DNA from: a virus
Strand: one strand, 5' to 3'
IMG/VR virus record: IMGVR_UViG_3300020471_000041
Location: 1 to 25,777 of that record
DNA: 25,777 nt
This document shows positions 1-20,307 of the stretch, one piece after another; the stretch's first letter is position 1; each line of letters opens with the position of its first letter. The position numbers and the translations under genes were made by a program. The notes under the pieces were generated by a model. It had not been told where the DNA came from, did no database searches, and was given only the letters and a program-made list of their open reading frames with translations.

Positions 1-153
1 GTTGTCTGCGATGCTTGCAGAGCGTACAACTACACAGATATATATACGACAGGGTTGACAGCAGTTATGACCCCGTAGGGGGTCAAAAACTGCACAGGCA
101 TGTCGATGCGATGGTCTTGCCCTGACATTATTTTTCAAAAAAGGAGTTTCAAC
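1..153. other. Leader region before the late gene run
   Basis: No coding sequence starting inside this stretch is supported. It holds a short imperfect inverted repeat at its very start (GTTGT at 1-5 against ACAAC at 26-30, with CTGC at 6-9 against GCAG at 17-20), an AT-rich alternating patch around 36-46, and the strong hairpin at 61-93 listed separately. A TTGACA hexamer lies at 55-60, but no -10 box follows at the usual distance. The stretch is probably the 5' untranslated leader of the structural transcript. The window starts inside it, so its promoter may lie further upstream. Confidence 0.5.
61..93. promoter_or_regulatory. Strong 13-bp hairpin upstream of the late genes
   Basis: GCAGTT (61-66) pairs with AACTGC (88-93), and TGACCCC (68-74) pairs with GGGGTCA (79-85). 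The loop is GTAG, and a small internal bulge separates the two helices (A67 opposite A86-A87). No T-run follows on either side, so it does not look like a standard intrinsic terminator. It sits about 60 bases before the first good ribosome binding site. Plausible roles are an RNase III processing site or a 5' stabilising structure for the late mRNA, as known in T7-type phages. The role is inferred; the pairing is read directly. Confidence 0.6.
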
Positions 154-11506: not shown

Positions 11507-14362
11507 ATGGTTGCAAAATATAGAAGACAAGTAAGAACTGGTGAGATAGGAGTAATCCGAGCTGACATGAGTGTCGCTAATTCTCTTGGTGAGATATCAA
11601 ATGCTGTAAGTAAAATGTCAAACGATGCATTTAAGTTTGCGGCAGACCAAGCAGAAGAGCGTGGTCGTGATTACATCTCTAGCAAAAGTGATGACCAAAT
11701 ATTTGGTATCGACCCTGAGACTGGTAAAGCAAAGAATGTAATGACAGAGTTGCTGGCAGACTTACCAGCTAAAGGCTATGGTATGATTGCTCAAAATGTT
11801 ATTAAGTCAGAAGCCGCTAAAAGATTTGGTCTTATTCTTGAAACAAAGTTTCGTGAGCAAGGAGCAAATGCTCAAGCTAAGTTCCCACTCAATCCGGGCA
11901 AAGCAAGTGCAATGCTCGAGGAGTTTACCGATGAGCTAGCTTCAAAGTATGAAGGCGAATATAAAAACAAAATACTTTCCTACGGAACTTCTTATACTTC
12001 TGGAGTTCGGAATACTTTACTTATACGTCAAGCAAACAATCAAATGCAGATTGGTGCAATGAATAATGCTCGTATTAAAACGAGCTTTGTACAAAATGAG
12101 CAATCAATCGCTGAAACAAGTGACCACTCTACAGTTCAAAAATTAATAAAAGAAGCTGATAATCCAACTGGAGATAAGCTAAAAGATATTCATAGCACAT
12201 CTAATAGTGACCATCAGTTTACTGGTGGTAAGGCAGAAAACGCAAATCAATTTAAGAAACGTCACAAGTCAAATATAGCTGTTGCCAGAATAAAAGGAAT
12301 ACTTCGTCAATATAGTGAAACAGACCTCAAGCCTCACATGACAATAGTTCAGGTTGCTAATGGTGCCGCCTTCAAAAATATAGAAGGTGTTTCCGCAGTA
12401 CATAATAAACAAATAAGAGAAATGCTCACACATGTTACTGCTTATGAAGAAGGTCGAAGTGATTTAAATTCAGCTGTAAAATCGATGGTAGCAAATCAAA
12501 ATGCTATTAATAATTATGTAAATCAGCAGACTGCAACAAACGAATCTGAACTTATAGAATCTCTTGGTGAGCAAGCATATAATCAGAGAGTTGATTATTT
12601 ATCTTTACTTGGTGGAGAAAGACAAGATAAGTTTGTAGCAGACCTAAACGCTCTCACAAACATTCCATCAAAGATTGAACTTGCGCAAAAACTCAAGAAT
12701 GAAATAAGAACAAGAGGTGCAGAGTTTGTAGAAAAGACTGTTGATGGTGAAACTGTCAGGTCAAAGAAACCAATACTTACTCAACCAGAGATAAATAAAA
12801 TTGATACACAAATAGATAAGATAGTTGCTTCTTCTGTTTCATCTAATCTCATAGAATCTTTTACAGAAAACGGCAGACTAAATACAGCGGAACTTAGAAG
12901 AGTTATCTCAGCTATCAAGTCTGGTAAAATGCCAGACATTCCAAACATGACATCTGGACAGAAGAAAGCTGTTCAAGATATTGTTCCTTTATTTACAAAA
13001 GAAAGAGCTGTTGGACCTGGGGGTGTTGAGACTGTTGAGGGAGGTACACCTAATCTAGATTTTGATGCAAGAAAAATGGTAAACAGCCATCTTGAGTCTG
13101 AAATAAATAATGCAACTCAGCTTGCAAGTGCAGAGAAACAACAGATAAAACTTGAACAATTTACTCGAGCAATAAGAGAAGGCGAACCAGTAGAGAGAGG
13201 CAAGGAAAATGAAGACAATGCTGATTCTTATATTCTGGCTCTAGCACAAGATAACCCAGCTCTTCAAGGAATGTCTGTTCGACAAATATTATTAAGTCGT
13301 GAATTTGCAAATCCAGATAGCAATATAAGAAAAGCTGTTGATTCAATGCTTAAAAATAATCAGATTGTTTCTACATCAATCAAAGAATTAATTAAAGACA
13401 CACGCAAAGGTCTGGTTGCAAGTGGTCCAGCAAACATGTTTTTAGATTTTATTGTCAAAGGTACTACTCTTATGACTGAACGAGATAGAGATGGTGCTTT
13501 TAGATATACTGAGTTCAATTTATTTTCTTTTGATGAAGACCTAGAGAAAGATGTTATTGCAATACAAAATGCTTTTAAGATAAGTCAGATTGCTGGTGGC
13601 ACATTAACTATATCTCAAGTCCTTGCTAATGAAAGAACCTATCGTAATAGTAACGAGTATGAAATGAAGTTAAGAGCTATCACTGGTGAGGACACTTTCC
13701 AGAAAGCAGAAAACGCATTGAAAGATGAAATCGCAAAGTATACTGGTGGTAAAGATACACTTTTTTACAAACGTATTCTTAATGCAATGCCTCATATTAT
13801 TTATAGAAATCGAAATGCAGAAGTTGATTTAGATGATTTAGAGCAAGAAACAAAAGCAATAATGACAGAGTTTTTTCCTGTTACTGAAGACTTTGTTCTC
13901 GACCCTCAGTCAGTATCATTTGATGGAAACATTAGGTCACCTTTTGCCATGAATAGATTGTTCAATACACCTGAAATGAAAGATAGTTTTTTAGAGTACG
14001 TTCAAGAAAAACTTCAAACCTATGGAGACTATAGCATAAGAGATGGAGACCGTGATGGAATTGAATCTCGAGATGCTGGTTTTTTTGCTGGTCTTGTTTC
14101 TGCTTTTAGTTTTCGTGGAGATAGGGAGGACAATGTAGGTAGAAAGAAAGCTTGGCTTACTCCTTCACAATTCTCTTCAACTGATTCTTTTCAGGAAAAT
14201 ATGCTGGGTGCAGATAAGCACAATGTTACTTTTTTCTTAACTACTGGAGTAAATAGCGAGTTAAGTTTTATTGTTAGTGAGCAAGAGGTTGCACAAGTAT
14301 CGATGAAAGAGTTTAGACATTGGCGCAAAACTGGTGAGTTTCTCAAAGAGGACGATAAATGA
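11507..14362 (+). CDS. Internal virion protein C (T7 gp15-like)
   Basis: The protein has 951 residues, overwhelmingly alpha-helical and polar, with no membrane segment or known enzyme motif that I can see. T7 gp15 has 747 residues; it forms the periplasmic part of the DNA ejection channel with gp16. The basic start MVAKYRRQVRTGEIGVIRAD is followed by SVANSLGEISNAVSKMSNDA, a typical gp15-like beginning. Start ATG 11507 has only a weak ribosome binding site (GTAGG), suggesting translation linked to the gene six bases upstream. The stop overlaps the next ATG (ATGA). The call rests mainly on size, composition and order. Confidence 0.78.
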   Translation: MVAKYRRQVRTGEIGVIRADMSVANSLGEISNAVSKMSNDAFKFAADQAEERGRDYISSKSDDQIFGIDPETGKAKNVMTELLADLPAKGYGMIAQNVIKSEAAKRFGLILETKFREQGANAQAKFPLNPGKASAMLEEFTDELASKYEGEYKNKILSYGTSYTSGVRNTLLIRQANNQMQIGAMNNARIKTSFVQNEQSIAETSDHSTVQKLIKEADNPTGDKLKDIHSTSNSDHQFTGGKAENANQFKKRHKSNIAVARIKGILRQYSETDLKPHMTIVQVANGAAFKNIEGVSAVHNKQIREMLTHVTAYEEGRSDLNSAVKSMVANQNAINNYVNQQTATNESELIESLGEQAYNQRVDYLSLLGGERQDKFVADLNALTNIPSKIELAQKLKNEIRTRGAEFVEKTVDGETVRSKKPILTQPEINKIDTQIDKIVASSVSSNLIESFTENGRLNTAELRRVISAIKSGKMPDIPNMTSGQKKAVQDIVPLFTKERAVGPGGVETVEGGTPNLDFDARKMVNSHLESEINNATQLASAEKQQIKLEQFTRAIREGEPVERGKENEDNADSYILALAQDNPALQGMSVRQILLSREFANPDSNIRKAVDSMLKNNQIVSTSIKELIKDTRKGLVASGPANMFLDFIVKGTTLMTERDRDGAFRYTEFNLFSFDEDLEKDVIAIQNAFKISQIAGGTLTISQVLANERTYRNSNEYEMKLRAITGEDTFQKAENALKDEIAKYTGGKDTLFYKRILNAMPHIIYRNRNAEVDLDDLEQETKAIMTEFFPVTEDFVLDPQSVSFDGNIRSPFAMNRLFNTPEMKDSFLEYVQEKLQTYGDYSIRDGDRDGIESRDAGFFAGLVSAFSFRGDREDNVGRKKAWLTPSQFSSTDSFQENMLGADKHNVTFFLTTGVNSELSFIVSEQEVAQVSMKEFRHWRKTGEFLKEDDK

Positions 14363-17856: not shown

Positions 17857-20307
17857 ATGACAATATCAGTTTCAAATAATACACCTAGAGTATCGTATAC
17901 TGTATCTGAGGGTGCAACACAGACATCGTTTACAGTTAATTTTGAGTTCTTTGCAGACGCAGACCTTAGAGTTTTTGTAGATAATACGCTCAAAACAATC
18001 ACCACTCACTACACAGTATCAGGAGGTAACGGCTCAACTGGTACAGTTACGATGAGTGTGACTGGTGCTAGTGGTGGCTCGACTGTTGTGATTGTAAGAG
18101 CGATTGCACTTGAGAGAACTACTGACTTTCCTACTTCTGGTGCTTTTAATATTTCTTCTCTGAATACAGAACTGGATAGAATCATAGCAATTCATGCTGA
18201 TGTGGATGATACTGCAGAGCGAGGATTAAGATTACAAGAATCTGATGATGCTGTATCAACAGAACTACCCTTGAAAGATACACGAAAAGGTACAGTTCTT
18301 GCGTTTAACGCTTCAACTGGTGTGCCAGAAGCTGGACCAAGCATATCTTCTGTAACGACTGTAGCAACGCAGTCAGCCAACATAAATACTGTTGCTGGTA
18401 TAAGTGCAAATGTAACCACTGTGGCTGGTATAGCGGCGAATGTGACGACTGTAGCTGGTATATCGAGCAATGTTACGACAGTTGCTGGAGTTTCTAGTAA
18501 TGTTACGACAGTTGCTGGGATTCAAGCTAACGTTACAACAGTTGCTGGCATAGCTAGTGACGTTACAGCTGTTGCTGGTATCTCGAGTGATGTTGCCGCT
18601 GTTGAAAATATCAAAGCAGATGTTTCAACTGTTGCTGGGATTGCAAGTAACGTTACTACTGTTGCTGGAATATCATCGAATGTAACAAGCGTAGCTAACA
18701 TAGCATCGAATGTGACTACAGTTGCTGGCATAAATACAACGCATTTATCGAATGTATCTGGTGTTGCTTCTAATGTTGCTCTTCTCGGTACATCTGACGC
18801 AGTATCTGACCTTAATACTTTGGCGGCAATCTCTGGTGACATAACATCTCTAGCTAATTCTCTTGAGAAAACATATACAGTTACTGTTGCAAATCCTGGA
18901 AGTGGTAATGTGTTTGTTCTTGATAGCTCTAATGCACCAGCTATCGAGATGTTTAGAGGTAATACTTATATATTCAATCAGAACGACGGAACAAACGATG
19001 GACATCCATTAGTATTTAAGAATGGTAGCTCTGCATACGAAGTTGGTGTGACTTACTTTTTGAATGGCTCTGCGACTACACAGTCAAACTATGTAAATAC
19101 TACGACTTTCAATGCTGGTGCAAGCTCTGGCGATAGAAAAATACAGATAGAAGTTGCAACAACAGCACCATCTTCTGGATTGAGATACTACTGCTACATT
19201 CATGGTAATGGAATGGGTAATACAATCACAGTCAAAGATAGTAATATATCTTTGGTTGCTGGTTCGATTGCAAATGTAAACTCAGTCGGTGGTGCTTTGA
19301 CAAATGTCAATACAGTAGCTGGGTCAATCTCAAACATAAATACAGTTGCTGGTGCAAACTCTAATATAACTACTGTTGCTGGTGCGAACTCAAATATTAC
19401 AGCAGTTGCTGGTGCGATAACAAATGTAAATAATGTAGGTGGTGCGATATCTGCTGTAAATACAGTTGCATCAAACATATCCGGTGTAAACAGTTTTGCT
19501 GATAGATACAGAATCGCATCTTCTGCACCGACCTCATCATTAGATGTTGGTGATTTATATTTTGATACGACTGCTAATGAGCTGAAGGTGTATAAGTCTT
19601 CTGGTTGGGCGGCGGCTGGTTCTACAGTAAATGGAACGTCTGCTCGATTTACTTATAATATATCTGGGACGCCAACCTCTGTTACTGGGAGTGATGCCAA
19701 TGGTAATACTCTTGCTTATGACGCTGGTTTTGTTGACGTTTATCTTAATGGTGTAAAACAAGTCAATGGTACAGATGTGACTGTTACAAGTGGTGATACA
19801 GTTACGTTTGCTTCTGCTCTTGCTAATGGCGATGTGGTAGACATAGTTGGTTTTGGTACGTTTAATGTTGCGGCAATAAGTGCATCAAACATCAACTCAG
19901 GTACTTTACCAAATGCAAGACTGTCATCAGTTCCAAACTCAGCATTAGCTAACTCTTCTATTACAATCAATGGTTCTGCTATTGCTTTGGGAGGTTCGGT
20001 AACTGTTGAGACGGATTTTACTTGGGAAACAAAAACATCTGCATTCAATGTATCTGCTAGTCGAGGATACTTTGTTGATACCTCGAGTGGAGCTGTAACA
20101 GCTACGCTACCAGCCAGCCCTACTGCTGGCGATACTGTTAGATTTATTGACTTGAGTGCAACATTTGATACTGCTAATTTAACTGTGGCTCGTAATGGAA
20201 AGAAGATACAAGGCGATGCTAGTGATATGACAGTTGCTACAGAACGAGCTGGATTTGCTCTGGTATTCTCAGGAGATACTCAGGGCTGGCTATTGATGGA
20301 GAAATAA
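17857..20307 (+). CDS. Tail fibre with T7-type N-terminus and cupredoxin-like insert
   Basis: The protein has 816 residues. Residues 1-165 match the T7 gp17 N-terminal attachment domain (RVSYTVSEGATQTSFTV, a strand-rich part, then ALERTTDFPTSGAFNISSLN and LDRIIAIHADVDDTAERGLR). Residues 171-290 are twelve decapeptides of the NVTTVAGIAS type. Residues 337-460 form a separate beta domain with H383, C446, H449 and M453 in a plastocyanin-like arrangement. Eight more decapeptides follow (464-547). Then come a GDLYFDTTANELKVYKSSGW unit (565-584), a beta domain of the DVYLNGVKQVNGTDVTV type, an SGTLPNARLSS motif (681-691) and a C-terminal beta region. It recognises the host surface. Two receptor-binding-type genes follow. 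Confidence 0.9.
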   Translation: MTISVSNNTPRVSYTVSEGATQTSFTVNFEFFADADLRVFVDNTLKTITTHYTVSGGNGSTGTVTMSVTGASGGSTVVIVRAIALERTTDFPTSGAFNISSLNTELDRIIAIHADVDDTAERGLRLQESDDAVSTELPLKDTRKGTVLAFNASTGVPEAGPSISSVTTVATQSANINTVAGISANVTTVAGIAANVTTVAGISSNVTTVAGVSSNVTTVAGIQANVTTVAGIASDVTAVAGISSDVAAVENIKADVSTVAGIASNVTTVAGISSNVTSVANIASNVTTVAGINTTHLSNVSGVASNVALLGTSDAVSDLNTLAAISGDITSLANSLEKTYTVTVANPGSGNVFVLDSSNAPAIEMFRGNTYIFNQNDGTNDGHPLVFKNGSSAYEVGVTYFLNGSATTQSNYVNTTTFNAGASSGDRKIQIEVATTAPSSGLRYYCYIHGNGMGNTITVKDSNISLVAGSIANVNSVGGALTNVNTVAGSISNINTVAGANSNITTVAGANSNITAVAGAITNVNNVGGAISAVNTVASNISGVNSFADRYRIASSAPTSSLDVGDLYFDTTANELKVYKSSGWAAAGSTVNGTSARFTYNISGTPTSVTGSDANGNTLAYDAGFVDVYLNGVKQVNGTDVTVTSGDTVTFASALANGDVVDIVGFGTFNVAAISASNINSGTLPNARLSSVPNSALANSSITINGSAIALGGSVTVETDFTWETKTSAFNVSASRGYFVDTSSGAVTATLPASPTAGDTVRFIDLSATFDTANLTVARNGKKIQGDASDMTVATERAGFALVFSGDTQGWLLMEK
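18367..18726 (+). repeat. Twelve decapeptide-coding repeats in the fibre gene (array 1)
   Basis: These are twelve consecutive 30-base units encoding variants of NVTTVAGIAS (fibre residues 171-290). The amino acid pattern is tightly conserved, while third codon positions vary freely, so the repeat is kept at the protein level. Such arrays form extended trimeric shafts in marine phage fibres. Confidence 0.85.
18865..19236 (+). other. Cupredoxin-like domain inside the fibre
   Basis: This segment encodes fibre residues 337-460 and is flanked on both sides by decapeptide arrays. It has a strand-rich pattern starting KTYTVTVANPGSGNVFVLDS, then FRGNTYIFNQND, a DGHPLVFK motif (H383) and YYCYIHGNGMGN (C446, H449, M453). 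The order His, then Cys-x2-His-x3-Met, matches the ligand set of type 1 copper sites in plastocyanin-like proteins. I recall similar YYC..H.GMGG segments in cyanophage structural proteins. Copper binding is inferred, not shown. Confidence 0.65.
19246..19497 (+). repeat. Eight decapeptide-coding repeats in the fibre gene (array 2)
   Basis: This second run of 30-base units encodes variants of NINTVAGANS (fibre residues 464-547). It uses the same period as array 1 but a distinct consensus (ALTNVNTVAG, NSNITTVAGA), with silent-site variation. Together the two arrays place the cupredoxin-like domain in the middle of a shaft. Confidence 0.8.

Follow-up and report, generated by a model that had tools for sequence, protein, structure and literature searches.

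A predicted cupredoxin-fold domain with a putative type 1-like copper site in a T7-like phage tail fibre, and its relatives in virion proteins

The analysed window was the whole stretch of 25,777 nucleotides of IMG/VR virus record IMGVR_UViG_3300020471_000041 (positions 1 to 25,777), and its tail fibre gene raised the following question: does the globular domain within the fibre shaft form a copper site, and what would such a site do in a virion? A sequence-only reading of the window had described a plastocyanin-like set of residues, His383 and Cys-x2-His-x3-Met (446, 449 and 453), in a domain between two repeat arrays. The four residues were confirmed at these positions in the ORF and the domain is flanked by an array on each side (Table 1).

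Table 1. Features of the window fibre and of proteins carrying related domains (window coordinates unless a locus is given)
Feature	Location	Strand	Evidence or remark
Tail fibre ORF	17857..20307	+	816 aa, ATG start; PHROG tail fibre families phrog_21412 (E 2e-58) and phrog_1640 (E 9e-11)
First array of the 10-residue (30-base) shaft repeat	18388..18668	+	Tandem Repeats Finder
Predicted cupredoxin-fold domain, fibre residues 337-460	18865..19236	+	AlphaFold2, Foldseek, VIA-align
His383, predicted first copper ligand (motif GHPL)	19003..19005	+	Invariant in 19 relatives; pairs with the first ligand His of PF00127
Cys446, predicted thiolate ligand	19192..19194	+	Invariant in 19 relatives; pairs with PF00127 ligand
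His449, predicted second His ligand	19201..19203	+	Invariant in 19 relatives; pairs with PF00127 ligand
Met453, predicted axial ligand	19213..19215	+	Invariant in 19 relatives; pairs with PF00127 ligand
Second array of the 10-residue (30-base) shaft repeat	19309..19417	+	Tandem Repeats Finder
C-terminal fibre module, residues 724-816	20026..20304	+	phrog_31104 (E 7e-26); phrog_9383, tail protein (E 4e-12)
gp9 with C-terminal domain	L208:1350-2531, L210:576-1802, L211, L217, L219
phrog_708 protein with two domain copies	L210:1809-5969, L211, L217, L219
SAR86 proteins	L300, L301, L304, L306-L312		Mostly lipobox lipoproteins

Fibre gene, optional module and predicted fold

The fibre ORF is located in the structural cluster of a T7-like podovirus, together with genes for the terminase large subunit, the head-tail adaptor, the major head protein, the tail tubular proteins and an internal virion protein with an endolysin domain. 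A marine bacterial host is likely, because the nearest relatives of the tail tubular protein B are those of Pelagibacter and Methylophilales phages. A 951-aa ORF adjoining the internal virion protein (window 11507-14362) gave no PHROG match at E 1e-3. The putative T7-type N-terminal region of the fibre was recognised more clearly by PHROG families than by PF03906 (T7 tail fibre N-terminal domain), which matched residues 16-84 weakly and below cut-off (E 1e-3). This region is followed by the first repeat array, the cupredoxin-fold domain, the second repeat array and a C-terminal module that is common to other fibres, according to the PHROG matches.

Fibres with the same N-terminal anchor were collected (80 sequences, 51 of them complete). 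The domain was present in eight of the 51 complete fibres, in each case with four ligands (8/8; one of these fibres, L283 (HTL), lay outside the regular expression and was assigned by eye), and the remaining 43 were without it. Up to residue 335 the fibre of L221 matched that of the window at 84%; from there on it diverged, directly before the domain start at residue 337. Optional presence and this point of divergence therefore indicate that working fibres gain and lose the domain by exchange.

AlphaFold2 prediction of residues 337-460 (19 sequences) yielded a beta-sandwich with a pLDDT of 95.8 and a pTM of 0.89, in which (domain numbering) C110 ends the strand 106-110 and M117 stands at the start of the last strand, 114-123. 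The best PDB rows obtained with Foldseek were rusticyanin (1rcy, E 3.5e-4), multicopper oxidase, nitrite reductase, laccase and plastocyanin, with some arginine deiminase rows at higher E-values. With VIA-align, the top rank went to the Hyphomicrobium nitrite reductase cupredoxin domain (2dv6, Z 9.1, rmsd 2.6 over 98 residues), and laccase domains came next. Nearly all of the matches listed by the two aligners were cupredoxins; TM-scores against single PDB chains were moderate (0.4-0.6). A compact relative, modelled separately (pLDDT 93.6), matched 2dv6 (Z 9.5, rmsd 2.4, 95 residues), rusticyanin 2cal (Z 8.9) and a fungal laccase (Z 8.9). Structure prediction, which had been proposed as the check on the sequence-only reading, thus returned a confident model, and on this model residues 337-460 almost certainly adopt a cupredoxin fold. 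The description as plastocyanin-like held for the predicted fold and the four predicted ligands. The domain is not plastocyanin proper; rusticyanin, laccase and nitrite reductase domains score higher. With these best structural matches of the model the identity is about 10-20%, and neither a trinuclear cluster nor an enzyme partner domain was seen with the fibre domain.

An immunoglobulin-like domain had been considered because of the YYC motif and was ruled out by the fold and the ligands. A single-sequence search of the PDB returned nothing of value. The profile search of PDB sequences gave antibody chains and a SUMO construct as top rows, matched by chance via the YYC..H stretch, and reached plastocyanins at E 1.2. 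In the BFVD, the domain model matched metagenomic beta-sandwich proteins of Pithovirus and Marseillevirus; the module or the fold may therefore also occur in giant viruses.

Copper-site signature and joint retention of the ligands

Cys446 is the sole Cys among the 816 fibre residues, which include five His and six Met. Shuffling the fibre sequence 100,000 times produced the pattern H-(35..90)-C-x2-H-x2..4-M in only four cases. In an alignment of 19 relatives with identities down to 36%, all four ligand residues were invariant. In a more divergent set of 37 domains, the Cys, the second His and the Met never varied, nor did the Pro that follows the first His; the first His itself was nearly invariant, its sole exception (L072) being an alignment shift. 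Among close relatives, dN/dS within the domain was 0.03-0.14, as under purifying selection. The fibre spacing is C-x2-H-x3-M, whereas most relatives have the amicyanin-like C-x2-H-x2-M, which is shorter by one residue.

For comparison with known copper proteins, 31 PF00127 loci were drawn from cyanobacterial genomes and from the genomes to which six of the bacterial loci belong, and 16 domains were aligned. With hhalign, the domain family matched these 16 proteins with a probability of 94.6 (P 7e-8) and all four ligands were paired; the score was 46.4, against a maximum of 23.0 over 60 column shuffles. When the four ligand columns were masked, the score dropped to 20.2, which is the null level. 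The sequence signal is therefore the copper-site signature itself; beyond the ligands, the shared fold rests on predicted structure and homology is unsupported by sequence.

The domain and its 19 relatives were without a PF00127 match in Pfam, and no family of Pfam or NCBIfam was over cut-off, the plastocyanin model being reached by only two of the 19 relatives (best E 0.033); below cut-off, weak plastocyanin and amicyanin echoes were present in Pfam and NCBIfam. The domain is a new family inside a known fold and site type, absent from both databases. It resembles the PF00127 proteins (plastocyanin, amicyanin, pseudoazurin) in its predicted cupredoxin fold and in the order His...Cys-x2-His-x2..4-Met, and its C-x2-H-x3-M spacing also occurs in the PF00127 protein L203. 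It differs from them in the residue after the first His, which is Asn there (PHN) and Pro in the fibre domain (HPL), in its greater length (124 aa, with an extra hairpin and helix) and in being carried by virion proteins. The type 1 His of laccase is also within an HP motif.

Ligand counts were taken over 129 domains, non-redundant at 90%. All four ligands were present in 116 domains and none or one in the other 13, while two or three were found in no domain (0/129), the relatives having been collected mostly by motif-favouring searches. Such a detection bias cannot explain the gap, because it favours partial over complete losers. If losses were independent, 39.9 domains with two or three ligands would be expected (20,000 permutations, minimum 28). 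The degenerate domains comprised seven without any ligand, three with only Met, two with only the first His and one with only Cys; they can be traced to about five lineages (L065, L068, the second domain of phrog_708 proteins, PSS2 gp080 and Syn1) and therefore reflect few independent loss events. The same contrast was seen in a giant SAR86 adhesin, with one intact copy and one copy retaining Met only. The all-or-none pattern is as expected from selection for a metal site, and such selection is well supported. The ligand order of type 1 copper proteins, as first read from the fibre, is thereby upheld: the residues pair with those of PF00127, and the family retains or loses them as a set.

Of two giant ORFs, L065:3-9341 contains six and L068:3-6431 three diverged copies of the fold, most of them without the ligand set, and PSS2 gp080 (L215:3492-3830) is a free-standing ligand-less copy directly after the tape measure genes.

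Relatives in virion proteins and bacteria

The earlier suspicion that related YYC..H.GMG segments occur in cyanophage structural proteins and that the fold may be widespread was borne out on both counts. The domain is spread over hundreds of marine viral contigs: a scan of viral contigs with the compact member recovered at least 580 relatives, and tblastn matched 305 phage records, nearly all of cyanophages, plus pelagiphages and Methylophilales phages. Besides T7-like fibres, the domain is present in pelagiphage and methylophage fibres. Cyanophage gp9 (wedge/tail-fibre connector, phrog_677, PF07880) carries a four-ligand copy at its C-terminus (C-x2-H-x2-M), and in a separate scan all 48 distinct gp9 C-terminal domains had the four ligands. 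The gene next after gp9 encodes the phrog_708 baseplate wedge protein with two domain copies, the first intact and the second ligand-less (Cys, the second His and Met are gone). A portal-proximal virion protein of S-TIM5 also carries the domain. Cultured phages with four-ligand copies include S-SSM5, which also has a ligand-less second copy, P-SSM2, S-TIM5 and the pelagiphage HTVC028P. The cyanophage baseplate and fibre families phrog_708, phrog_677 and phrog_30742 thus contain relatives of the fibre domain; they are named by virion location only, and their PHROG descriptions mention neither a copper site nor a cupredoxin fold.

At L069:4755-5798, a phrog_399 virion structural protein is split by a cupredoxin domain (residues about 85-195), which suggests insertion of the domain into an existing structural protein.

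In bacteria, the domain was found in 31 of 61 SAR86-order genomes. The SAR86 proteins examined were mostly lipoproteins with a lipobox (ACGGGGG) and a four-ligand domain, plus giant adhesins.

A search of openly available journal articles turned up no report of a cupredoxin or type 1 copper domain in a phage virion. The copper-binding motifs of a viral contig in PMC8115048 were considered as a precedent and set aside, as they belong to a viral NirK enzyme and not to a virion protein. As far as can be checked, the setting, a cupredoxin domain in virion proteins, is undescribed before.

Proposed role and significance

The domain is probably an accessory cupredoxin module in which His383, Cys446, His449 and Met453 form a mononuclear copper site resembling type 1, and it would serve for docking or stiffening in the T7-like fibre shaft. 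The parts of this proposal differ in strength: that the metal (copper) site is functional is very probable, while the docking or stiffening role is put forward tentatively. Copper is the likely metal, because the predicted ligand set includes Cys and Met. No published copper measurement of any domain-bearing virion was found.

T7-like fibres are trimers. If the present fibre is trimeric, it would carry three copper sites, one copper per chain. The domain would fold during assembly and then take up copper from the lysate or from seawater after release. Bound copper would lock the ligand loop and rigidify the surface-exposed module, which could act as a spacer and a docking surface at the host cell and stiffen the fibre. 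An accessory surface module loaded with copper outside the cell is favoured because the domain is optional and yet keeps its ligands when present, and because the same module is found on lipoproteins and adhesins of bacteria, proteins that lie outside the cell and meet the copper of seawater.

Three other readings were weighed against this one. Ligand-less copies in the phrog_708 proteins of T4-like cyanophages, in PSS2 gp080 and in the two giant ORFs imply that the fold also has a use in the absence of metal. The fibre domain could accordingly be a metal-free, immunoglobulin-like decoration, with the fold used for its shape and the ligand residues present by inheritance or for structural reasons. 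In tailed phages, immunoglobulin-like decoration domains are small beta-sandwich modules, variably inserted in virion proteins, and in these respects the fibre domain resembles them; they belong to another fold class and have no metal site. The metal-free reading is improbable, given that the ligands are lost jointly and never singly (two or three remained in none of the 129 domains, where about 40 were expected) and persist in highly diverged phage and bacterial copies. It is similarly unlikely that a cupredoxin-fold site holds zinc, iron or nickel in vivo as a purely structural clamp like the HxH iron sites of T4 gp37, even though metal-binding tail fibres with such sites are known (PMC11705849) and virion metals need not be redox active. 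The conserved axial Met and the Cys-x2-His-x2/3-Met loop follow the order that is specific to type 1 copper sites, and Met is no usual ligand of zinc or iron(III). The HxH fibres (T4 gp37; alterophage R22Y, PMC11705849) share with the fibre domain a metal site in a phage fibre, but there three chains supply the His residues of each site along the fibre axis, whereas the site predicted here is complete within one globular domain, includes Cys and Met and is of the copper type. The window fibre contains no HxH motif, its five His being at 51, 113, 296, 383 and 449.

A redox or copper-sensing device, in which electron exchange with host surface proteins, or copper from them, triggers adsorption or DNA release, would suit type 1 sites, which usually transfer electrons, and the four-ligand copy at the C-terminus of the gp9 connector. 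Such a device is nevertheless unlikely: the domain is optional (8/51 fibres), sits within many unrelated virion proteins and has ligand-less paralogues, and no gene for a redox partner came to light. Because the domain varies in position and has ligand-less copies, redox triggering, though possible, ranks below the main reading.

On a broader and doubtful view, many marine tailed phages might be copper proteins, T4-like cyanophages at the gp9 connector and T7-like phages mid-fibre, using type 1 centres in attachment or triggering through host-surface contact or redox state and amounting to an unrecognised pool of organically bound ocean copper. The HxH iron fibres have been suggested to be important for adsorption and for ocean trace metals (PMC11705849). 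If the site holds copper, cultured cyanophages and pelagiphages would be open to a direct test, namely copper determination in purified virions, and the domain would be the first cupredoxin family seated in virion proteins, as far as the literature searched shows, and a common one; copper would join the iron-based ideas on metals in marine phage fibres, and phages would gain a metal-dependent surface module.
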